Position numbers and translations under genes: made by a program. From positions 1-15,129 of the forward strand of contig JAJRTR010000118.1 in NCBI GenBank assembly GCA_024278215.1: 15,129 nucleotides of DNA, written 5' to 3'. Numbering within the stretch: position 1 is the stretch's first letter; each line of letters starts with the position of its first letter. Positions 3,962 to 15,129 of this stretch are shown here, piece by piece. Under the pieces are notes generated by a model, which searched no databases, was not told the origin of the DNA, and saw nothing but the letters and a program-made list of their open reading frames with translations. Source of the stretch: a bacterium (GTDB lineage Bacteria; UBP15; UBA6099; JAJRTR01).

Positions 3962-5230
3962 TTAATCGAAATCCAGCGCGCCCTGCGATTCATTCGCCTT
4001 GAGGTCGGCCCTTGTGAGTATATCGCCGTCGCCGAGTGAAACATTCAGCAGTTGGCCGTTCTTTACAGATTTTACAGACCTTATGATTTTTCCGGTCCGC
4101 GCGTCGCGCGTCACGGAATAGCCTCTTTGCAACACTCGCTTCGGGTCCAGTCCGTTCAATTGCTTGCCGAGCGACTCGATACGTTCGCGCAGTGATCTGC
4201 AATCATACACCAACTGCTTTTTCGCCACATTCATGAGGTCGTCGAGATACTGCCTTTTCCGGTCGATCTCGTCCAGCAGCCGCCTGTAAGATACCGTGGC
4301 GGAGACAGTATCTATACGGGTATTGAAATAGCGTATAGAGTCCTTTGTGATGCGAAGCAGCCTGTTTTCGACGTTGTTGAGACCTGCGACAAGTTCGGTG
4401 AGGTCGGGTACGGACACTTCCGCCGCCGCGGATGGAGTCGGCGCGCGCAGGTCGGACACGAAATCGGCAATCGTGAAATCCGTCTCATGCCCGACACCGG
4501 ATATAATCGGCACCGTACATGCCGCGATGTCGCGCGCGAGCGACTCGTCGTTGAAACCCCACAGGTCTTCTATCGAGCCGCCGCCGCGAACTATCAGAAT
4601 AGTGTCGAGGCGCGGCAGTTGCGCTGCCTTGGCGAGTGCTGCCCGAATACTCGCGGGCGCGGCGTCGCCCTGCACCACCGCCGGCGCTATCGTCACTTCG
4701 ACAGCCGGGTAACGCCGCGAGATAACATTTATGACATCACGCACCGCGGCTCCCGTCGGCGATGTGACAACCGCTATCCTTTTCGGGAACTTCGGTATCT
4801 CACTCTTGCGTTCACTATCGAACAAACCCTCGGCGGCAAGTTTCTTTTTCAGTTTCTCGAATTCGAGGAACAGCGCGCCCATACCGGCCGGCTGCATATA
4901 CCTGATGTATAGCTGATATTCGCCCCGCTTCTCATAAACGCTCACGCTGCCGTAGGCCAGCACCTCGGCGCCCGCCTTCGGCTTCTCGCGCAGTGTTCCC
5001 GCGAAACGACTGAACATCACACACCGAATTTGCGCGTTCTTATCCTTCAGCGAAAAGTACATGTGGCCGGAAGCATGATGCGTGAAGTTTGATATTTCGC
5101 CCTTTATCCAGACATCGTTGAGTCCTGGATCAGACTCGATATTTCTCTTCACATGCCTGTTGACGTCAGTGACAGTGAGAACATTTTCCGGTTCTGAGCC
5201 GGCTGCTGATTTCCGGTTGGAATAATCCAT
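3962..5230 (-). CDS. xseA: Exodeoxyribonuclease VII large subunit XseA
   Basis: Catalytic subunit of exonuclease VII. From the ATG at 5230 the protein has 422 residues, normal for the family. The N-terminal OB-fold is clear (about 15-115: 'VWIKGEISNFTHHASGHMYF', 'SLKDKNAQIRCVMF'). The nuclease domain follows with 'IAVVTSPTGAAVRDVINVIS' (152-171), 'ILIVRGGGSIEDLWGFN' (211-227) and 'GVGHETDFTIADFVSDLRAP' (245-264), the expected Asp and His-x-x-Asp region. A coiled-coil stretch (about 290-375) and a C-terminal segment with 'RGYSVTRDARTGKIIRSV' complete it. A TTG at 5260 would add ten residues, but neither start has a strong SD; I prefer the ATG because homologues begin shortly before 'LTVTDVNRHVK'. 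It follows nusB by 81 bases, a common nusB-xseA-xseB order. Confidence 0.96.
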   Translation of the reverse strand: MDYSNRKSAAGSEPENVLTVTDVNRHVKRNIESDPGLNDVWIKGEISNFTHHASGHMYFSLKDKNAQIRCVMFSRFAGTLREKPKAGAEVLAYGSVSVYEKRGEYQLYIRYMQPAGMGALFLEFEKLKKKLAAEGLFDSERKSEIPKFPKRIAVVTSPTGAAVRDVINVISRRYPAVEVTIAPAVVQGDAAPASIRAALAKAAQLPRLDTILIVRGGGSIEDLWGFNDESLARDIAACTVPIISGVGHETDFTIADFVSDLRAPTPSAAAEVSVPDLTELVAGLNNVENRLLRITKDSIRYFNTRIDTVSATVSYRRLLDEIDRKRQYLDDLMNVAKKQLVYDCRSLRERIESLGKQLNGLDPKRVLQRGYSVTRDARTGKIIRSVKSVKNGQLLNVSLGDGDILTRADLKANESQGALDFD

Positions 5231-5311
5231 TTTATATCTGTGATTTTCTGTGTAAAACAATTTCGGAACACGTTATTACGATCCGGGGGCCGACGGAATA
5301 TCTATCCGGTT

Positions 5312-5758
5312 TCAACTTTCGGCGTTGCCGACCGGCATATCTTCATCCGAACAAACGCCCGGCTCCTCGCGGCAGAACTTTCCAAGGATACCGTTGATAA
5401 ACTTCGCCGCGTGTTCCATTCCGTATCTTTTAGCGAGTCGGACCGCTTCGTTTATCGACACACTTATCGGAATGTCGTCCGCGAAAAGAATTTCACCCAC
5501 GGCAAGCCTCAGAATCGAACGATCGACCTTGCCGAGCCTGTGCAGGTCCCAGTCGATGGAATATCTGCGGATGATTTCATCAATCTTTTCCTGGTTGATC
5601 ATCACATAATTCACGACACGTTCGAGATATAACTGATCGCGCTCGGCGAGTCCTTCCTCGAGCGCCCGCTCGCGCATAACATGCTCGAGGCCGTCTTTGC
5701 CTGTATCAAGTTGAAAAAGGGATTGCATGGCCACGAGACGCGCCTTGTTGCGAGACAT
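5312..5758 (-). CDS. nusB: Transcription antitermination protein NusB
   Basis: NusB pairs with NusE (ribosomal protein S10) on boxA RNA to prevent premature termination, chiefly in rRNA operons. The 148-residue all-helical protein has the family landmarks: 'RNKARLVAMQSLFQLD' (3-18), 'DWDLHRLGKVDRSILRLAVG' (69-88) and 'PISVSINEAVRLAKRYG' (97-113) followed by 'AAKFINGILGKF'. The C-terminal tail (about 130-148), acidic and cysteine-containing, is a little longer than usual. Its SD (GGAAG) is embedded in the last codons of the upstream small membrane protein gene, six bases away, suggesting translational coupling. Confidence 0.96.
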   Translation of the reverse strand: MSRNKARLVAMQSLFQLDTGKDGLEHVMRERALEEGLAERDQLYLERVVNYVMINQEKIDEIIRRYSIDWDLHRLGKVDRSILRLAVGEILFADDIPISVSINEAVRLAKRYGMEHAAKFINGILGKFCREEPGVCSDEDMPVGNAES

Positions 5759-5764
5759 ATTGAA

Positions 5765-5971
5765 TTACTTCCCAAAATAATTATTTAATATCCTTTTGAT
5801 AATCTCCGGATCATCGACTGCGTATCCGATAAAGAAACCCAGCACGGCGAGAAATATTACAAACAGCGTCTTGAAAAAACCAAGCGTCAGGAACAGGACT
5901 CCGAAAACGGCGAAAACTATTGCCATAAATATTTTCCCGATATTATTTTTCATAAAATCGTTCCGGTTCAT
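5765..5971 (-). CDS. Small two-helix membrane protein (DUF2273-like) of the Asp23/AmaP cluster
   Basis: A 68-residue protein with two hydrophobic segments (about 11-32 and 34-51) separated by 'FFK', ending in a short charged tail 'DDPEIIKRILNNYFGK'. Small integral membrane proteins of the DUF2273 type are known beside asp23/amaP in Firmicutes, and the layout here matches; I assign it by context plus topology rather than by a distinctive motif. The ATG at 5971 begins one base after the amaP stop (TGA-T-ATG). An in-frame longer start at 6043 would overlap amaP and is unlikely; an internal ATG at 5953 is possible. It probably acts with AmaP at the cytoplasmic membrane. Confidence 0.78.
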   Translation of the reverse strand: MNRNDFMKNNIGKIFMAIVFAVFGVLFLTLGFFKTLFVIFLAVLGFFIGYAVDDPEIIKRILNNYFGK

Positions 5972-5972
5972 A

Positions 5973-6539
5973 TCAGTCCGGTTTCTCCAGCCCGGTCGGT
6001 TCCGGGACCACCGCTCCGGCGGCGGCTGAAGCCTGGATGTCAAGCGCGTCTATTGTTATTCCGAGACTCTCGCTGAAATAGTTTCTTATTTTTCTGTTCA
6101 GTTCGACGCTGTAGTCCTTCAGATTGGTGTTTGCCATGTCGACTTCAATTTTCAGAGCGATGCGCAGAGCGTCATTCTGCGGTTTGACATTCAGCGCCTC
6201 GACAACCGCCTGCGGAAGCATCCCGCCCGCGATGTCCTCGATGAGCTTTCTGATAGTCGCGCCGGAGACAGAGAGGGTCCCCTCGCTGTCGCGCCGGATA
6301 ACATAAGTTTTGTCGCCTTTCGACGCGGCGAAAAGTATGCGCAGGAAAAAAAGAAAAACGACAAAAAGCGCGACCGCGCCGATTGCGACTCTGCCTGTCG
6401 TCGTCTCGAGCAGGGTGTTCGCTTCCGACATTGCATAATAAAAAACGTCGGGTTCGATAACGACATATATTACGCCGCACGCGGCGCATAAAACCGCGAG
6501 ATCGAAAAGAAGGCTTATTAGTGATGAAAGAACCTTCAT
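5973..6539 (-). CDS. amaP: Alkaline shock response membrane anchor protein AmaP
   Basis: AmaP anchors Asp23 to the membrane in Staphylococcus aureus. The 188-residue product has two N-terminal membrane helices (about 7-28 and 49-71) joined by a loop containing 'IEPDVFYYAMSEAN'. A cytosolic alpha/beta domain (75-170) follows that resembles Asp23 itself ('LSVSGATIRKLIEDIAG', 'ALRIALKIEVDMAN', 'RKIRNYFSESLGITIDALDI'). The tail is alanine/proline rich. The start ATG (6539) abuts the asp23 stop (TAA), implying coupled translation with its partner. Confidence 0.9.
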   Translation of the reverse strand: MKVLSSLISLLFDLAVLCAACGVIYVVIEPDVFYYAMSEANTLLETTTGRVAIGAVALFVVFLFFLRILFAASKGDKTYVIRRDSEGTLSVSGATIRKLIEDIAGGMLPQAVVEALNVKPQNDALRIALKIEVDMANTNLKDYSVELNRKIRNYFSESLGITIDALDIQASAAAGAVVPEPTGLEKPD

Positions 6540-6926
6540 TTAATCCTCTGTTTTCGGGGCGACCAGGAGATTCTCGGGCAGCCTGATGTCGGCAATGTGA
6601 ATATTCACGCCGCTGACAGCTTTTCCAGTGATCGACTCGATCTTCGTTTTGACAATTTCCTGAGCCTTTCGCGCAACGTCGGTAACTTTGACATCGTAGT
6701 CGATTATAATATCGAGATCGATTGAGAAAGAATCGTTTTCATTATCCCTGTCGACCCTGATGCCTGCCGAGAACTTCTTCTTTCCGGTCGTCGCCTGCCT
6801 GATGTCCTCGAAAAGGCCACCTTTCATTCCGGCTATTCCGGGTATCTCGCTTACCGCTATCCCCGCTATTGTGCCGATAACTTCGTCCGATATTTCTATC
6901 CTGCCGATTTCAGCGTCTGTCGCCAT
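6540..6926 (-). CDS. Asp23/Gls24 family envelope stress protein
   Basis: A 128-residue Asp23 (DUF322) protein. Landmarks are 'GRIEISDEVIGTIAGIAVSE' (8-27) followed by 'IPGIAGMKGG', and a second half with 'SIDLDIIIDYDVKVTDVARK' (68-87), 'AQEIVKTKIESITGKAV' and the family's closing strand 'VSGVNIHIADI' (104-114). In staphylococci Asp23 is an abundant membrane-associated cell-envelope homeostasis protein held by AmaP; the same role here is inferred from the next two genes. GGAGG about eight bases upstream fixes the start. It lies 92 bases downstream of efp; an AT-rich TATAAT at 6980-6985 (minus) in that gap could give an extra promoter. Confidence 0.93.
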   Translation of the reverse strand: MATDAEIGRIEISDEVIGTIAGIAVSEIPGIAGMKGGLFEDIRQATTGKKKFSAGIRVDRDNENDSFSIDLDIIIDYDVKVTDVARKAQEIVKTKIESITGKAVSGVNIHIADIRLPENLLVAPKTED

Positions 6927-7018: not shown

Positions 7019-7588
7019 CTATTTGTTCGCGCGTTCTATATACCTGTTGGCCCGTGTGTCGATGCGGATAACTTCGCCGCTCTCGATGAACAGGGGAACC
7101 TGCACGACCGCGCCGGTTACGAGTTCGGCGTTCTTCGTAGCGCCCGAAACAGTGTTTCCCTTCTCGCCGGGTTCCGTATACTTGATCTCTATTTCCATGT
7201 GCTGCGGCAGCTCGATGCCGAGTATCTCATCGCCATTGAACTGAACATCTATCGTCATATTTTCAAGCAGATAATTGACCCTTTCGCCGAGCATATCCTT
7301 ACTTATGCTCACCTGTTCATAAGTTTTCTGATCCATGAACACGTAATCGTCGCCGTCCTGATAAAGATACTCCATTTTACGTTGATCGAGACGCAGTTGC
7401 TCGACTTTCTCACCGGCCCTGAACGTTTTATCGACAACAGCGCCGGTGCGCACATTTCGTATCTTCGTCCTTACGAACGCGGGCCCTTTCCCCGGTTTCA
7501 CATGCTGGAATTCAATGACCTGCTGAATCTCGCCATCATATTTGAAATACATGCCGTTCCTGAAATCATTAGTTGTTATCAAGCGCAT
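7019..7588 (-). CDS. efp: Translation elongation factor P
   Basis: EF-P binds between the P and E sites of the ribosome and relieves stalling at consecutive prolines. The 189-residue length is standard. The N-terminal KOW-like domain carries the tip loop 'HVKPGKGPAF' with Lys34 at the position modified in many bacteria (beta-lysylation or other). The OB domains show 'DQKTYEQVSISKDMLG' and the C-terminal signature region 'ATKNAELVTGAVVQVPLFIE'. GGGAGGA directly upstream fixes the ATG at 7588; an in-frame ATG at 7624 would add twelve atypical residues and overlaps the likely promoter. No epmA, epmB or ymfI-like modification gene is in the window. It is the first gene of the minus-strand housekeeping operon. 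Confidence 0.97.
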   Translation of the reverse strand: MRLITTNDFRNGMYFKYDGEIQQVIEFQHVKPGKGPAFVRTKIRNVRTGAVVDKTFRAGEKVEQLRLDQRKMEYLYQDGDDYVFMDQKTYEQVSISKDMLGERVNYLLENMTIDVQFNGDEILGIELPQHMEIEIKYTEPGEKGNTVSGATKNAELVTGAVVQVPLFIESGEVIRIDTRANRYIERANK

Positions 7589-7629: not shown

Positions 7630-7746
7630 TAAGTTAACGTATTTTATGATTTTTGGGAAGGATTAAAGATTCTTAAGGGCAATTTCCCGACAATAGTATT
7701 GGCGCGAAAAACTTTTTTCGTGAAAGCGGATGTCAAGTGGAGATGA

Positions 7747-7859
7747 AAAATCCTCGCAGGAGTACTTGTAGAGTACGTCGAGGACGATTTCGCGCCGACA
7801 ACACAGCTATGGACAATAGCAGCCGACCGCAGCCGAATCAGAATTTTGCAATTGGCTCG
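7747..7859 (+). repeat. Dispersed repeat, copy A (113 bases)
   Basis: This stretch matches the reverse complement of 14988-15100 over 113 bases with three substitutions. Weaker similarity continues about 13 bases to the left (7734-7746 against 15101-15114). The first 44 bases can fold as a hairpin: CCTCG (7752-7756) with CGAGG (7779-7783), and inside it GTACT (7762-7766) with AGTAC (7772-7776). A second small hairpin, GCTAT/ATAGC, lies further right around 7806-7820. No coding potential is evident. It lies 3' of the sulfatase-fold gene. Confidence 0.93.
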
Positions 7860-7864
7860 GCAAG

Positions 7865-7895
7865 CGCCCCTATTTTACACGCCGCATCAGGGGCG
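7865..7895. repeat. GC-rich inverted repeat downstream of the sulfatase-fold gene
   Basis: CGCCCCT (7865-7871) and AGGGGCG (7889-7895) are exact complements around a 17-base spacer, 28 bases past the sulfatase-fold stop codon. It could end or stabilise that transcript, but no T-run follows on the minus strand, so it is not a typical intrinsic terminator. Confidence 0.5.
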
Positions 7896-7923
7896 ACCGC
7901 GGTCCGGAATACGGTGCAGGTCT

Positions 7924-9744
7924 CTATACATAGCCAAGGTCTTCGAGTCGTTTTTTTATCTCGCGCATCTCTTCGTCGTCCGGTTTTGTTTCAAACTCAT
8001 CTACCGGTATCGTAAAGTCCCGCGGTATTTCGGCGAAGAGCGCACTTTCGAGTTCTCCGGCATGCCTGTTGTTTCGCGTGTGTATGTTGTTCAATTCGCG
8101 CTCGTCATCGCGGAGATTGAAAAGTTGCCGTGTGTTGTTTTGCAGGTCGGCGATAAGTTTGAAGTCATTATGAATTACGTACGCGAGCAAACCCTCGAAT
8201 CCTGTCATGCTGAATATCATGTCGTCGAAAAGTGGTTTCGCCGGTTCGTTTCCGGTTTCGATGCACCTGAGGAGCGGCAGGAGATTTTTCAGATTGAATC
8301 TCCTGCCCTGGCCGTCGCGCACCAGGTCCCGCGCTATCCCGCGATGTGATGGAGGCGCTTTAATCATTATCGGGACATTCAACGTCTCATTGTAAAGAGA
8401 GTGTCCGTGCCTGGGGTAGCGCAGGCGGCCGCGCTCGCGCAGTTCTTCACCATGGTCGGAGAAGAAGACAACTATGGTTTTTTCCAGCAAACGGTGTATC
8501 TGTAATATTTTTATTATTTGTCCGAAATACAAGTCCGCCGTATATACGGCGCTGTTGTAAACAGACAACTCTTCCGTGAAATCACGAGAATATACAGGGT
8601 CGACCAGGCCGCCCCGTGGCGCGAATTTTTCTATCTGCTCGACAGTCACCGACGCCTCGGGCAGACTCACATAAGGCTGATGGGTGTCCATACAGTGGAT
8701 GTACATGAAAAACGGCGTGTCGCCCAGCTTTGCAAAATATTCGTTCGCGAGAACATTGAACTGCTCGCCGCGCCAACCTCCTTTCGGGATGCTGTCGTGA
8801 TAGCCTCTGCCGTATCCCAGCCTCGACACGAGCCAGTAATTCGCGTTCAGAAAGATTTTCAGTTTATTGAAACATGACAGGTTATATGTCGCGGAAACGA
8901 ATTTCCTGTTGGGCAATTTGTAGCGGTTTTCCGTGTCGGTCGATGAAACTTCCTTCAGTACACAGTGCTCCCATGGCTGAAGGCCGGAGATAATGCTTGC
9001 GATGACAGTCGGCGTCCATGTGGAAGGCGACACTCCGTCCAGAATAATTCCGTCTTCGAAGAAAGCGTCTATTTCCGGCGTGGGGCAGAACCGCGGGGGT
9101 GATCCGTAGAGCCCGACCCTGTCCCTTCTCAGCGAATCCTGACAGATCAGCAGTACATTAAGCGGTTCGTCGTCTCTGCCCGGCAGAACGTAAAAGTGTG
9201 GTTGTTTTATCCGGCGGACCACCTGGCGATAATACTTATCTTCCGGCGCTGTTCCCGAATGATTTCGTATCGTCACAAAATCATCAGTATCTTGCGGCAC
9301 ATGATTTTCCGGTGGATTGTATCCGAGAATAATATGTGTTTCTTCCCTGTCGAGGATTTCAGTCATGTCGGCGCGCTTGAGGGCTTCGGCAAGCAGCGCG
9401 ACATATTTTTCCGTGATTATTATTCGATGTAAATCATTGATCTTCGCCTGGAGCTGTTTCAGCAGGTATCCCAGGCCGACGCCAAGCAGCAACACGTTCT
9501 TCCGGCCGCCTATCAACCGCAGTTTTCCGGCTGCCGCTCTTTCCGGATCGATCCTGCTCTCTATATATTTCCTCCCGCCGCTTTCTGTGACCACATAAGC
9601 GGTTTCATCTCCCGCTTCGCTTTTTTCAATGCAAATTCTATCCCTGTCGTTTTCGTTCACATTTACGACGAGATACGCGATGACCGGGAATCGCCTCTCG
9701 AGCACTTCCAGATTTTTTTTGAACAGGTTGTTTTCCGGTTTCAT
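7924..9744 (-). CDS. Maf-type N-terminal domain fused to a sulfatase/alkaline-phosphatase-fold domain
   Basis: 606 residues in two parts. Residues 1-145 resemble the N-terminal domain of Maf (motility-associated factor) glycosyltransferases: 'LFKKNLEVLERRFPVIAYL' (7-25), 'ESRIDPERAA' (62-71), a Rossmann-like 'NVLLLGVGLGYLLKQL' (83-98) and 'IIITEKYVALLAEAL'. Residues 195-545 are a sulfatase-superfamily domain with metal-site 'LLICQDSLRRDRVGLYG' (Asp203), 'HCMDTHQPY' (350-358), 'FFSDHGEEL' (Asp430, His431) and 'HGHSLYNETLNVP' (446-458). The formylglycine motif C/S-x-P-x-R is absent; the aligned stretch is 'STWTPTVIASIISG' with Thr244 at the nucleophile position, so a phosphoryl or phosphoglycerol-type reaction is at least as likely as sulfate ester hydrolysis. 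No signal peptide is seen. AGAGGA supports the start. Confidence 0.88.
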   Translation of the reverse strand: MKPENNLFKKNLEVLERRFPVIAYLVVNVNENDRDRICIEKSEAGDETAYVVTESGGRKYIESRIDPERAAAGKLRLIGGRKNVLLLGVGLGYLLKQLQAKINDLHRIIITEKYVALLAEALKRADMTEILDREETHIILGYNPPENHVPQDTDDFVTIRNHSGTAPEDKYYRQVVRRIKQPHFYVLPGRDDEPLNVLLICQDSLRRDRVGLYGSPPRFCPTPEIDAFFEDGIILDGVSPSTWTPTVIASIISGLQPWEHCVLKEVSSTDTENRYKLPNRKFVSATYNLSCFNKLKIFLNANYWLVSRLGYGRGYHDSIPKGGWRGEQFNVLANEYFAKLGDTPFFMYIHCMDTHQPYVSLPEASVTVEQIEKFAPRGGLVDPVYSRDFTEELSVYNSAVYTADLYFGQIIKILQIHRLLEKTIVVFFSDHGEELRERGRLRYPRHGHSLYNETLNVPIMIKAPPSHRGIARDLVRDGQGRRFNLKNLLPLLRCIETGNEPAKPLFDDMIFSMTGFEGLLAYVIHNDFKLIADLQNNTRQLFNLRDDERELNNIHTRNNRHAGELESALFAEIPRDFTIPVDEFETKPDDEEMREIKKRLEDLGYV

Positions 9745-9863
9745 TTTTCCTCTGTTTTTTTAGATGCCGGAACTATGTGTTTTCAAGAATAATCGTGTGT
9801 GCCATGCACAAAATTCTTTCGTATCCGTTCACAAGTAACTGTTCGCAACGGTACATCTGAAAT

Positions 9864-9942
9864 TCCTGGGATGCAACGACTGTGTCGTTGCAACTGTGAA
9901 AAAGTCGCATTTCGCAAAAACTGACGTTTTTGCATCCCAGGA
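9864..9942. repeat. Compound, cloverleaf-like inverted repeat
   Basis: Outer arms TCCTGGGATGCAA (9864-9876) and TTGCATCCCAGGA (9930-9942) are exact complements over 13 bases. Between or overlapping them sit two more perfect hairpins: TGCAACGAC/GTCGTTGCA (9872-9892, 3-base loop) and GCAAAAAC/GTTTTTGC (9914-9933, 4-base loop). The inner stems compete with the ends of the outer stem, so the element could switch between a closed three-way form and two separate hairpins. It may be a small mobile or REP-like element; no target-site duplication could be recognised. Confidence 0.8.
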
Positions 9943-9979
9943 TTTTCTGTTATCGCCGTTATACTCAAAATCCGTGGTT

Positions 9980-10006
9980 TGTCATTCTGAGCGAAGCGAA
10001 GCATCT
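9980..10006 (+). repeat. Dispersed 'TCATTCTGAGCGAAGCGAAG' repeat
   Basis: The sequence TGTCATTCTGAGCGAAGCGA followed by AGCATCT matches a short interspersed repeat that I know from many unrelated bacterial genomes, usually ending AGAATCT. Its function is unknown. It is about 20 bases left of repeat copy C. Confidence 0.7.
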
Positions 10007-10025
10007 ACAGGTGTTTGAGCCGATT

Positions 10026-10064
10026 GCAGTCGACCGCAGCCGAATCAGAATATTGCAGGCGCTC
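10026..10064 (+). repeat. Dispersed repeat, partial copy C
   Basis: Bases 10026-10057 match the right-hand end of copy A (the part from GCAGCCGACC through TTGCA) with two substitutions. The final GCTC of the element recurs at 10061-10064 after a divergent 3-base stretch. The left two thirds of the 113-base unit, including the large hairpin, is missing. Confidence 0.8.
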
Positions 10065-10114
10065 TTTAGAATGATAGTTTGCCCCCGAGCGTCCTGTCAA
10101 ATAAGCGCTTGCGG

Positions 10115-10143
10115 ATTACAATTACCCGTTTTTATGTAATAAT
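10115..10143 (+). promoter_or_regulatory. Possible promoter of the URO-D/glycosyltransferase unit
   Basis: ATTACA (10115-10120) and AATAAT (10138-10143) are spaced by 17 bases and match the -35 and -10 consensus at four and five of six positions. A start near 10150 would give a leader of about 47 bases. No supporting operator is seen. Confidence 0.35.
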
Positions 10144-10196
10144 GTCATAGATAAATCATTCACAAACATGCGAGGCCGGAAGAAAGAGACATTGCG

Positions 10197-11300
10197 ATGA
10201 ATGTAAAAGAGCGCTTTACGGCAACACTTCGCTTCGAGGAGACAGACAGGCCGTTCTTTATGCCGTCGATAGGTTTCTGGAAAGAGACACTCGACCGCTG
10301 GTACGGCGAAGGGCTCCCGAAATATGTTATAAATGAGCTGGTGGCGGTCCTTTATTTTAATTATGACTACTGGGTTCCGATCCCTGTCGGCACGCATGAG
10401 CAGCCAGGTTTTTTCCCGCCTTTCGCAAGAAAAACAATAGAGAAGGGCGAGAACTGGCGGATAGTGCGCGACGGCGCGGGAAAAGTGTTCAAGGAATTCA
10501 CGGACGGTTCGTCGTCGGTCCCGCTTTTTCTCGAAGCGCCTGTGAAGAATATGGATGATTTCCGGCAGTTGCGCTGGCGGCTGCGCCCGAACATGCCGGG
10601 GCGGGCGATCAACCCGGCCTGGGATATTATGAACTCGTTCTGCGCGAAACAGGGGCTGCCTCTCGTGGTTCAGTTCTCCGGGTTGTTCGGGTTTCATCGC
10701 CACCTGCTGGGCGACGAGGAACTGATGCTGGCTTACTATGACATGCCGGATGTCATACACGCGATGTCGAAAGCATGGGTGAGACTCACCCGCGGAACTC
10801 TGCGGCGGATGACAAAACGCTACGACATCACGATGGTCGCTTTCTGGGAAGACATGTGTTTCCGCAACGGTCCTCTGATATCACCGAAAACTTTCAGGGA
10901 ATTCATGACGCCATACTACAGGGAAGTCATAGACGACGCCAGAGAAAACGGCATCGAGTTCTTCCAGGTAGACACGGACGGCGACTGCACGCTGGTCATT
11001 CCGCTATTCGAGGAAGTAGGGGTCAATATGCTGCTGCCGTTCGAGGTGCAAGCCGGTATGGACATTCTTAAAGTGCGCGAAGACCACCCGAAAACGGCAA
11101 TATTCGGCGGACTCGACAAGCGCGTGCTGGCGGAGACGAAAGATGATATAGAAGAAGAAGTCATGAGCAAAGTACCTGCCATGCTCGAGCAAGGCGGCTA
11201 CTTCCCGGCGATCGATCACGCGGTGCCCCCGGATGTATCGCTCAAGAATTTCAAATTCTTCCTCTGGCTTTTGAAAAGCCGAAAAGTTAATGTGCGATAA
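10197..11300 (+). CDS. Uroporphyrinogen decarboxylase (URO-D) family protein, methyltransferase-like
   Basis: 367 residues with the URO-D/MtaA-type TIM barrel. It opens 'MNVKERFTATLRFEETDRPF', the usual start of this family. It then shows 'VAFWEDMCFRNGPLISP' (214-230), 'TFREFMTPYYREVIDDA', 'FFQVDTDGD' (255-263), 'FEVQAGMDILKVRE' (282-295), 'IFGGLDKRVLA' (302-312) and 'GGYFPAIDHAVPPDVS' (333-348). True HemE catalytic features are lacking, and the zinc-binding His-x-Cys of corrinoid methyltransferases such as MtaA is replaced by Asp-Thr-Asp-Gly-Asp, so neither heme synthesis nor Zn-thiolate methyl transfer can be assumed. Large paralogue sets of this type occur in Lentisphaerota/Planctomycetota-like genomes, with unknown substrates. 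It is first in a two-gene unit, 38 bases before the glycosyltransferase. Confidence 0.88.
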   Translation: MNVKERFTATLRFEETDRPFFMPSIGFWKETLDRWYGEGLPKYVINELVAVLYFNYDYWVPIPVGTHEQPGFFPPFARKTIEKGENWRIVRDGAGKVFKEFTDGSSSVPLFLEAPVKNMDDFRQLRWRLRPNMPGRAINPAWDIMNSFCAKQGLPLVVQFSGLFGFHRHLLGDEELMLAYYDMPDVIHAMSKAWVRLTRGTLRRMTKRYDITMVAFWEDMCFRNGPLISPKTFREFMTPYYREVIDDARENGIEFFQVDTDGDCTLVIPLFEEVGVNMLLPFEVQAGMDILKVREDHPKTAIFGGLDKRVLAETKDDIEEEVMSKVPAMLEQGGYFPAIDHAVPPDVSLKNFKFFLWLLKSRKVNVR

Positions 11301-11338
11301 TTAGTGACCGAACATCCGCAAACAGGTTCGAGAGAATC

Positions 11339-12916
11339 ATGCCTATGAATGATGATAAAAACAGGCTGCCCGCATTGTTCGTCGTTCTGGCGGTGGCAAT
11401 GGCCCTGAGAATCGCTTTCATGACCAGGTGCTTTTTCGACCCCGAAGAACTGATCGAATTTTCTGTGACGCGAATATCGTCGTTCGGCGATTTCTTCCAG
11501 GCGGCTATCCAGCTCGACAAAGGTTTCATAGACCTTTTTTTCCTCCGGGCACTCAGCAACATCAGCAGCAATGAATTATTCCTTCGGTCGGGCGAACTTG
11601 TCCTGAACCTTATTTTTCTGCTTATCGCCTGGCGCGTACTTGTCGAGATAACGGAAAGTGCGGAAGCCGCCATGATCGGGATAATCATTATCGCACTGTC
11701 GCCGCTGCACACATATTATTCCTGTATTCTGCGTTACCAGAATCTCTCTTATATCTTTACAGCACTGTCAATACTTTATTTCTGGCGGCTGATGTTCAGG
11801 CCGTACAGAGCCCTCAATGTCGTGATGTACGGAGCGATGACTGCACTGTGCTGCATGTCGCACTATTACGGATTTTTCTTTGTTGCGGCGCAGTTTATCA
11901 CGTTTGCAGCGCTGAAGGCAAAGCAGGTCAGGGACTGGCCGAAGATGGCACTTGCGGCAGTGATGGCGGGTGTTTTTTTCCTGCCGTGGCTACCGATATT
12001 TCTCAAGCAGCTCGCACGCAGGGGCAGCGGCATTTCTCCCGCCGCTTTTAATATCAGCAATCGATTCGGTGCGTCCCTGCTCAATATACCGGATGTTTTC
12101 TTCCAGTTCGTTACAGGTGAATACTACAACCTTCACGGGGACCGGCTGATCGAAAAGTTTATTCTATATACTTGTTTTATTTCTCTGCTGGCATGTCTCG
12201 GGCTTTTCTTGTCGGTTTTGTTCAGGCGACAGATGAGCCGGGGTATGCGTTTCAGTACAATACTGCTGTCGAGTGTTATTCTTATCGGTTATTTCTCAAA
12301 GAATATTACCGATGTCGCTTTTCACACAAAATACCTTATCCCGTATTCGATCCTCTTTTATGCGATACTCGCAATGTTGATAGCGTCGATAAAAAACAAG
12401 TCCGGCCAGTTGGCGGCGGCGGCGTTGCTGATGCTGCCGCTGGGTGTCAGCCAGGTATACATGCAGGTGGTAGCGAGCGATGCGGATAATATAAGAAATA
12501 CGGCGCGGCTTGTGGCAAACAGTTATGAGCCGGACGATGTCGTAATAACTCCGGGCGTAAAATGCGGAAAACTTTTCAGCTACTACATGAACACGGATAA
12601 AAACATTGATCTTCGAATATGGAATTACGCGGACAAAAGCCGCGTGCTGCTCGAACAATACTACGACATAAGCGGCATCGCTCTTAATAGTCGCGAAGAC
12701 CTCCGGGAACTCATGCGCGGGCACAAGCGTGCATGGGTCTTCTATTGCCTGATGGGACCGAGGGGAAGCATGGATGTCTTCAACCGTCTCTACGACCCGG
12801 AAGGCATACTGCCCGACTGGTTCGGGAGCAATATGACACCGAGCGGAAATATCATATTCAAAACAAGTCCACGGGAGAATTATTTTCTGGGCCGCGTTTT
12901 TCTCTTTGTCCGATGA
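11339..12916 (+). CDS. GT-C membrane glycosyltransferase, GT39/ArnT-like
   Basis: 525 residues with about ten hydrophobic segments up to residue 375, then a soluble C-terminal domain. The first loop after helix 1 has 'RCFFDPEELIEF' (30-41), where GT-C enzymes carry their catalytic acidic residues (Asp34, Glu36 and Glu37 are candidates). 'MSHYYGFFFVAAQF' (173-186) is the conserved His-Tyr-x-Gly region of bacterial GT39-like proteins. The C-terminal part has 'DADNIRNTARLVANSYEPDD' (381-400), the motif before the periplasmic domain core. Such enzymes transfer a sugar from a polyprenyl-phosphate donor to lipid or protein on the outer face of the cytoplasmic membrane. GAGAG seven bases upstream supports ATG 11339; ATG 11345 is an alternative. 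The acceptor is unknown. Confidence 0.82.
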   Translation: MPMNDDKNRLPALFVVLAVAMALRIAFMTRCFFDPEELIEFSVTRISSFGDFFQAAIQLDKGFIDLFFLRALSNISSNELFLRSGELVLNLIFLLIAWRVLVEITESAEAAMIGIIIIALSPLHTYYSCILRYQNLSYIFTALSILYFWRLMFRPYRALNVVMYGAMTALCCMSHYYGFFFVAAQFITFAALKAKQVRDWPKMALAAVMAGVFFLPWLPIFLKQLARRGSGISPAAFNISNRFGASLLNIPDVFFQFVTGEYYNLHGDRLIEKFILYTCFISLLACLGLFLSVLFRRQMSRGMRFSTILLSSVILIGYFSKNITDVAFHTKYLIPYSILFYAILAMLIASIKNKSGQLAAAALLMLPLGVSQVYMQVVASDADNIRNTARLVANSYEPDDVVITPGVKCGKLFSYYMNTDKNIDLRIWNYADKSRVLLEQYYDISGIALNSREDLRELMRGHKRAWVFYCLMGPRGSMDVFNRLYDPEGILPDWFGSNMTPSGNIIFKTSPRENYFLGRVFLFVR

Positions 12917-13023
12917 AAGAAGGATCATCGGCAATACGTTTGAGTTCCCATCGCATAATCCGTGGCTCAGTGATGTCTGTGTCGATACTCGTTTTATTTG
13001 TTCAGAAACTACCAGGGTCGGGT

Positions 13024-14970
13024 TCACTGCTTCTTCATCATGCGCATCTGTTCGAGATATTCTTTCGCTTTTTTATTGCGCGGGTCGAGTTGCAGCGCGT
13101 GCCGCCAGAGTTTTGCCGCCTCAGCCGGGTCGCCCTCCATGTAGCGGCACAGCCCGAGATTTATCCAAACAGAGATTGCATCGGGATAGGCTTTTGCCAG
13201 TGCGCTGAATATCGAAGCGGCGTCCGAATACTGCTTGTTCAGGAAGAGTGTGTTCGCGTATATCATGGCGGCCTGCATATCGCCCGGCGCTGCTTCTGCC
13301 GCTGCGGCGCAATAACCGACAGCGGAGGCGGTATCCTTCTTCACCAGCATGCTGCGGCAGATTATTTGATTCGCCCACACGCTGCCGGGCTCCGCCACAA
13401 GCATTCTGCGCGCGATTCCGATCGCGTCGTCGGGCCTGTCTGTTTCCACATAGGACATGCTGAGTTTCCGGAGCACACGCGGGATATCCGGCTCGAGCTT
13501 CTGCACTTTTTCCAGGTATTCCGCCGCCTGCGCGTAGTCCCCATTGCGCCCGTATATCGTTCCGAGGTTTTCATACGGCACAAAATGATTGGGGTCGGCC
13601 CTGATCGCTCTCACATAAAGGTCTTTCGCTTCCTCGACCCGACCTGTTTTCTCATATTCGCTCCCGAGATTATTCAGCGCAATTGTATTGAATGGATTCT
13701 TTTTTATTGTGTCCGACCATAGCGTTTCGCTGTTTCGCCACACTTTATTTCTCTGGAATGTCGCGTAAGAAAAAGTGACTGTCAATATAAGCAGCCCGAT
13801 CAACACAATAGTTGTCGACCCCGCTTTTCTCGCTTCGACCGCCTCGCTTAGTTTCCCCGCCGCAACCGCGACCCCGAGACAGAACGCCGCCGATGCAACA
13901 TACAGATAGCGGTCCGCCATGCCCGCCCGGAACTGGACGATGTGCAGCACCGGCAACAGACTTACAACAAACCAGCCGGCATAGAACAGCACCCCGCGCC
14001 GCCGCCGCGCCGCGACGACGACCGCACCGGCGATCATCAGCACAACGAGCCAGCACCCTAGATAGAGCGGGTCCGTCAATCCTTCGGGAAGCCTGATTAT
14101 GTAATGTGTGCTGAGGTTCACAGGAGCGAAAAGCAGTCCCGCATATCGCAACAGCAGGAAACCTGTGGTCATCTGCGTCATCGCAAAAGAGCCGCCCAGG
14201 TGCCCGGACACAACATTGCGCTCGGCGAGTACCTGCATCTGTGTCCACACGAACAGCGCGCCCGGCAGCGCGAATACCGCAAGTCCGGCGATCCCCTTCC
14301 GCAGCGACTCACGTCTCTCGACCACGGCCAGCCACACAAATGCAAGTCCCGGCAATATTACTGCCGTCGGCTTTGCCAGCAGAGCCGCCGTCCACAACAG
14401 AATCGAGCAAAGAAGCGCAACACCGGAAATCGCTAGGCTCCTGCTTCGAACGAACGAAATAAATGTCGCAAGCGACGCGAACAGCAGCGCCGCGCTCAAC
14501 GGTTCCTTCCTCGCCGCGAGCCACGCCACCGCCTCGACATGTACCGGGTGCACCGCAAACAGCAGCACCGCCCACAACGCGACTCCCCTGCCCCACGGCC
14601 CGCACCGAAAAAGCAACAGCAGCAACACGCACGCTGCCACATGCAGCAGGATGTTGCCCAAGTGATAGCTCCATGCGGAATAACCGCTGATTCTGTAATT
14701 CAACGCCCATGTCAATGCCGTCAGCGGCAGGTTTACATCCGTCTGCGAACCCGGCAGATAGGCCGACAGCATCTCGCCGATGCTCCGAGCGTCCAGTGTC
14801 CTGATAGTCTTGTTGTTCAGTATCAGGTCGTAATCGTCATAAGTGACAAAGTCGTTGCCGAACGTATTCAGATATGGTATCACCGCCGCCAGCACGACAA
14901 ACACACAGGCGGCCCACAGTGGCAGCTCACTTCCCGGCAGGTCGGATTTCCTTTTAATGTCTGAATTCAT
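13024..14970 (-). CDS. TMTC-like multi-pass membrane protein with C-terminal TPRs (probable GT-C glycosyltransferase)
   Basis: 648 residues. Hydrophobic segments span about 18-405. The first periplasmic loop has 'NDFVTYDDYDLILNN' (39-53), with the Asp-Asp pair expected in GT-C folds. Next come the family hallmark 'HPVHVEAVAWLAARKEPLSA' (141-160), 'LLAKPTAVILPGLA' (197-210) and 'MADRYLYVAS' (351-360). After 'KVWRNSETLWSDTIKKNP' (409-426), about six TPR units run from 430 to 635. This matches bacterial relatives of eukaryotic TMTC O-mannosyltransferases; in bacteria the activity is mostly untested. The TPRs probably face the periplasm and bind protein. No SD is seen before the ATG; a TATAAT seven bases upstream raises the possibility of a leaderless message. 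It is convergent with the GT39-like gene across 107 bases with no clear terminator. Confidence 0.87.
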   Translation of the reverse strand: MNSDIKRKSDLPGSELPLWAACVFVVLAAVIPYLNTFGNDFVTYDDYDLILNNKTIRTLDARSIGEMLSAYLPGSQTDVNLPLTALTWALNYRISGYSAWSYHLGNILLHVAACVLLLLLFRCGPWGRGVALWAVLLFAVHPVHVEAVAWLAARKEPLSAALLFASLATFISFVRSRSLAISGVALLCSILLWTAALLAKPTAVILPGLAFVWLAVVERRESLRKGIAGLAVFALPGALFVWTQMQVLAERNVVSGHLGGSFAMTQMTTGFLLLRYAGLLFAPVNLSTHYIIRLPEGLTDPLYLGCWLVVLMIAGAVVVAARRRRGVLFYAGWFVVSLLPVLHIVQFRAGMADRYLYVASAAFCLGVAVAAGKLSEAVEARKAGSTTIVLIGLLILTVTFSYATFQRNKVWRNSETLWSDTIKKNPFNTIALNNLGSEYEKTGRVEEAKDLYVRAIRADPNHFVPYENLGTIYGRNGDYAQAAEYLEKVQKLEPDIPRVLRKLSMSYVETDRPDDAIGIARRMLVAEPGSVWANQIICRSMLVKKDTASAVGYCAAAAEAAPGDMQAAMIYANTLFLNKQYSDAASIFSALAKAYPDAISVWINLGLCRYMEGDPAEAAKLWRHALQLDPRNKKAKEYLEQMRMMKKQ

Positions 14971-14983
14971 TTTATCAATTATA
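14971..14983 (-). promoter_or_regulatory. Possible -10 element of the TMTC-like gene, near-leaderless
   Basis: A perfect TATAAT (14983-14978, minus) ends seven bases before the ATG at 14970. Transcription from it would begin at or next to the start codon, consistent with the absence of an SD. The -35 position would fall inside repeat copy B and does not match consensus. Confidence 0.3.
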
Positions 14984-14987
14984 TTAT

Positions 14988-15100
14988 CGAGCCAATTGCA
15001 AAATTCTGATTCTGCTGCGGTCGGCTGCTATTGTCCATAGCTGCGTTGTCGGCGCGAAATCGTCCTCGACGTACTCTACAAGTACGCCTGCGAGGATTTT
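14988..15100 (-). repeat. Dispersed repeat, copy B (113 bases, inverted relative to copy A)
   Basis: Reverse complement of copy A over 113 bases with three substitutions. Unlike copy A, its hairpin has a 6-base inner stem (CGTACT/AGTACG) because one of the substitutions restores pairing. It lies 18 bases upstream of the TMTC-like start. Weaker similarity to copy A continues to about 15114, so the element may extend towards the window edge. Confidence 0.93.
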
Positions 15101-15129
15101 ACACCTCCGCCTTGCTCTGAACAATTTCG

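Follow-up and report, generated by a model that had tools for sequence, protein, structure and literature searches.

A dispersed 178-bp MITE as the probable source of an inverted repeat pair framing four genes

Main finding

The two inverted repeats that frame four genes in the window (the whole stretch of 15,129 nt analysed here) are very probably, at a probability of about 0.93, independent insertions of an abundant dispersed MITE, and their framing of the four genes is ordinary. The element is 178 bp long and represents, in our classification, a new family within a known kind of element. This reading is built on its terminal repeats, target duplications, copy number and intergenic placement, all of which were observed. 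In the mechanism that we propose, a presumed DDE transposase, not found in the assembly, would have moved the MITEs in trans by their terminal repeats, the two copies (A and B) would have landed independently on either side of the four genes, and the outer end of copy A would have been lost later. The pair has the look of a bracket because the mean gap between MITE copies is 7.3 kb, about half of the neighbouring pairs are in inverted orientation, and an assembly break falls within copy B. Recognizing the element as a MITE keeps the block from being mistaken for a mobile or phase-variable one, and puts on record, for a lineage that has been little sampled, a MITE family that is dense and was active fairly recently.

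The inverted pair and the genes of the window

The window makes up the whole of contig C92 in a fragmented assembly (4.55 Mb in 207 contigs, 95% complete). Its features are as follows.

3962..6926, minus strand: Asp23, AmaP-like protein, small membrane protein, NusB and XseA (tblastn synteny)
7019..7585, minus strand: efp, elongation factor P (Pfam EFP domains; orthologues with 58-64% identity in four same-order genomes)
7739..7858, plus strand: copy A, a MITE truncated to element positions 59-178 of 178 (blastn of the consensus to the window, 95% identity)
7924..9744, minus strand: sulfatase-fold protein (weak Maf_flag10_N match at residues 82-135, in the N-terminal part)
10023..10057, plus strand: decayed remnant of the MITE inside the block, element positions 136-170 (88.6% identity to the consensus; direct repeat D2)
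10197..11300, plus strand: URO-D family protein (Pfam PF01208)
11339..12916, plus strand: PMT_2/GT39-like membrane glycosyltransferase (Pfam PF13231)
13024..14970, minus strand: TMTC-like membrane protein with TPR repeats (Pfam TPR families)
14989..15129, minus strand: copy B, a MITE with element positions 38-178 of 178 present (blastn, 99.3% identity to the consensus)

The single long inverted repeat of the window has arms of 121 nt at 7739-7859 (plus) and 14988-15108 (minus), which are 96% complementary and separated by 7128 nt, and the match is real and beyond chance. A sequence-only reading of this DNA had described the arms as inverted copies of a 113-base repeat that differ at three positions only. 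The differences were as stated, but when the copies were aligned together with their flanks, the 113 bases proved not to be the repeat unit; they are the right two-thirds of the 178-bp element. The same reading had seen no transposase in the window, and the Pfam scan of the window's main genes is consistent with this.

The block was also said to be exactly bracketed by the two copies, and it is not. Copy A, which sits in the gap between the 3' end of the sulfatase-like gene and the 5' end of efp, has an intact inner (right) terminal repeat and, in the alignment with flanks, lacks its outer 58 nt. Copy B, placed just upstream of the TPR/TMTC-like gene, likewise has its inner terminal repeat intact and reaches the last base of the window, where it is cut by the contig end at 15129. 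The decayed remnant lies inside the block. Since the outer end of each copy is missing, the target duplication of A and B cannot be read.

Adjoining the MITE remnant, at 9976-10016, is another dispersed repeat (...TGTCATTCTGAGCGAAGCGAAGCATCT...), with similar copies in loci L130 and L157.

Structure of the 178-bp element

When copies were aligned with their flanks, the full unit was found to start with GAGCCAATTGCAAAATTATGTTCG and to finish with CAGAATTTTGCAATTGGCTC, and the flanks diverge beyond these points. Terminal inverted repeats of 17 bp (GAGCCAATTGCAAAATT) are present at both ends, and the full copies are uniform in size (176-179 bp) and have no coding capacity. Target duplications were counted in the 58 unique full copies for which the flanks on both sides could be read. 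An identical 4-bp word stands on either side of 36 of these; when the right flanks were shuffled among copies, such matches averaged 1.8 and never exceeded 6. A 5-bp word flanks 3 of the 58. The duplicated words are 79% A+T and without a fixed sequence. Target duplications of 4 bp argue for a transposase of the DDE type. With a length below 500 bp and no genes, terminal repeats, a target duplication and many dispersed, mostly intergenic copies, the element is a MITE, and the flank duplications are what transposition of a non-autonomous element leaves behind.

The MITE consensus folds along its entire length (-86 kcal/mol for one strand and -67 for the other), and this full-length hairpin, together with the position of most copies between genes, would suit a conserved regulatory RNA or attenuator that is kept for its hairpin and is not a transposon. 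The stems themselves argue otherwise, as they contain no covariation beyond chance (3 double changes, 2.4 expected), 73 of 123 single changes break pairs, and the rate of change is similar for paired and unpaired bases. Since compensatory change does not exceed chance, the fold is due to the palindromic build of the element and not to selection on an RNA. An Rfam search with the MITE gave no match, and the same-order genomes lack the element save for one, which has a single match of 72%. The 4-bp target duplications largely refute the RNA reading, which we consider extremely unlikely; transcripts may be processed at individual copies as a by-product.

Some terminal-repeat pairs are more closely spaced, namely L157 12872-13033 (162 bp), L155 2572-2677 (106 bp) and L136 5216-5279 (64 bp). 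These may be internally deleted derivatives of the MITE, and the 162-bp pair has a matching 4-bp flank, ATCT.

Copy number, spacing and contig ends

Searching the genome with its own repeat gave 464 first-look candidates, and all 40 of the 40 that were scored are near-full at 93% identity or more. Pattern searches found 228 occurrences of a 37-nt core when as many as 3 mismatches were allowed, and 519 of the terminal repeat with no more than 1 mismatch; the control, a reversed pattern in the case of the core, gave 0 for both. To estimate spacing, 420 kb of genome stretches were used; these contain 45 copies, of which 31 are full length. This extrapolates to approximately 490 genome-wide, degenerate copies included, or one detectable copy per ~9 kb. 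We estimate a total of roughly 200-500 copies, ~490 detectable copies amounting to about 1.5% of the genome. Full copies have a median identity of 94% to the consensus (maximum 99.4%), and this high identity indicates that the family spread fairly recently, after the split from the sampled relatives. As judged against a greedy longest-ORF heuristic rather than a curated annotation, 29 of 33 copies in a 320-kb sample fall outside the predicted ORFs, although these take up 85% of the sequence and leave only ~15% uncovered.

In the 420-kb sample, the gap between neighbouring copies has a mean of 7336 bp and a median of 5324 bp, 21 of 37 neighbouring pairs are in inverted orientation, and the Poisson probability of a neighbouring copy within the A-B gap (7128 bp) is 0.53. 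An inverted pair 7128 bp apart is thus the typical arrangement for the MITEs of this genome. Nothing sets the pair apart in this genome, which has 228 cores, about one copy in every 9 kb, and more neighbours in inverted than in direct orientation. The fallback of the sequence-only reading, that A and B belong to an abundant dispersed family and frame the block by chance, matches the copy number, spacing and orientation. That reading had also held that dozens of evenly scattered copies with no tendency to bracket accessory genes, and no inversions in relatives, would make the bracketing coincidental, and mapping found hundreds of copies scattered through the genome, which is largely that situation. 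Its two other proposals, an invertible switch and the ends of a transferred unit, gained no support, as A lacks its outer repeat and the outer end of B is unassembled.

In the first of these proposals, homologous recombination between A and B would flip the 7.1-kb block and alter what lies upstream of efp. The inverted copies have ~120 bp in common at 96% identity, in principle long enough for RecA-mediated exchange, and the upstream neighbour of efp is not the same as in relatives. Against this, hundreds of other MITE copies are equal or better substrates, so that the A-B pair is not favoured, and an inversion would leave copy A beside efp with the ~150 bases between them unchanged, only the gene beyond A being exchanged. 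We therefore consider the switch very unlikely and rejected it as unneeded.

The MITE also coincides with breaks in the assembly. No fewer than 16 of the 30 best copies are 60 nt or less from the end of a contig, where 1.6% would be expected; the assembler stops inside the repeat, and many contig breaks are caused by it. Copy B is one of these contig-end copies, so the right border of the block is an assembly break. Such breaks matter when gene neighbourhoods of this assembly are read.

Transposase partner, distribution and likeness to known elements

No autonomous element with the terminal repeats of the MITE was found in this assembly. A search for PF01609 (DDE_Tnp_1) returned three genes, the flanks of which do not have MITE ends in a transposon arrangement, and searches of the genome for PF13546, PF13586 and PF13751 were empty. 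When terminal repeats next to a different sub-terminal sequence were sought, the hits were all MITE copies or variants, fragments or unpaired ends. The autonomous partner may have been lost, may be of another family, or may lie in the unassembled part.

We also searched 59 other genomes, all from outside family f1, that of the present genome. One distant genome has a 39-bp match, and among the same-order genomes G005 alone, which belongs to another family, has a match, so that mapping the repeat in relatives, as the sequence-only reading had suggested, yielded a single diverged 159-bp relative (72%) at L062 (G005:C27) 1501-1659. Transfer of the MITE by phage or plasmid was considered and rejected, since there was no match in the collections of plasmids, phage records and viral contigs.

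Prokaryotic MITEs have been described as shorter than 500 bp, with terminal repeats of 4-30 bp, direct-repeat flanks, a stem-loop, intergenic placement and truncated copies (PMC10969869). Known examples are Correia in Neisseria, ERIC in enterobacteria (711 copies in Photorhabdus luminescens), Chunjie in Geobacter uraniireducens and QMITE2 in Coxiella (PMC10969869). The 178-bp element has in common with these its size, the lack of a gene, terminal repeats, direct-repeat flanks that decay with age and a stem-loop, as well as intergenic placement and truncated copies that lack an end. Its copy number falls in the range reported for MITEs, which is hundreds in some hosts, and its terminal repeat sequence was not found in the literature searched. 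The REP/REPIN palindromes, which are mobilised by RAYT (Y1) transposases, are similarly intergenic palindromic repeats in hundreds of copies, but the 178-bp element is longer and has defined terminal repeats and 4-bp target duplications.

The efp junction

On the other side of copy A, efp is the first gene of a conserved downstream operon, its start being set at 7585 from comparison with relatives. The order efp, Asp23, AmaP-like protein, small membrane protein, NusB and XseA is kept in 4 same-order genomes (tblastn). The upstream side of efp was listed in three of these four (G003, G005 and G002, representing two families), and in each a TPR-adenylate cyclase of 946-1010 aa, named by sequence reading rather than by a family search, is directly upstream. 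The cyclase orthologue of the present genome is on contig C57, with 51% identity over its length, and there a 143-bp hairpin element belonging to a different family comes after it, with what we take for the end of an insertion sequence beyond. The presence of the cyclase upstream of efp in relatives, and on C57 here, shows that a rearrangement or insertion parted the two genes in this lineage.

This junction bears on the idea of a composite mobile unit, in which two MITEs served as ends and the four genes were carried into place. It would agree with the finding of the cyclase, and not the four-gene block, directly upstream of efp in relatives, and with the sulfatase fusion, the one of the four block genes that was compared with relatives, for which no close homologue was found in the same-order genomes and, there as in the genome collection, only generic sulfatase matches. 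However, copy A is without its outer terminal repeat (positions 1-58) and so is of no use as an outer end now, the four genes face both directions with no mobility gene among them, and the cyclase on C57 is adjoined by the different hairpin and the putative insertion-sequence end, not by the 178-bp MITE. A composite transposon bounded by A and B is in our judgement very unlikely indeed, and was rejected as unneeded and because copy A lacks its outer end, that of B being beyond the contig.

Independent insertion of A and B is thus the reading that we prefer, and nothing ties the event at the efp junction to these two copies rather than to any other repeat. It is conceivable, though unlikely, that the junction is instead the product of an exchange between MITE copies, and that MITEs and at least one other hairpin family are a leading source of rearrangement in this uncultured lineage.

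The 143-bp hairpin element on C57 (L152, G000:C57, 6553-6695) has 20-bp ends, TGATTCGTGTGTAATAAGTC and GACTTATTATGCACGAATCA, that are 90% complementary, and it provides the stop codon of the adenylate-cyclase gene. More copies or diverged relatives of it are present in L159, L174, L132, L133 and L164. In L174 (G000:C153, 1-274) it lies between two pieces of the MITE (positions 11-126 and 155-178) and looks nested.
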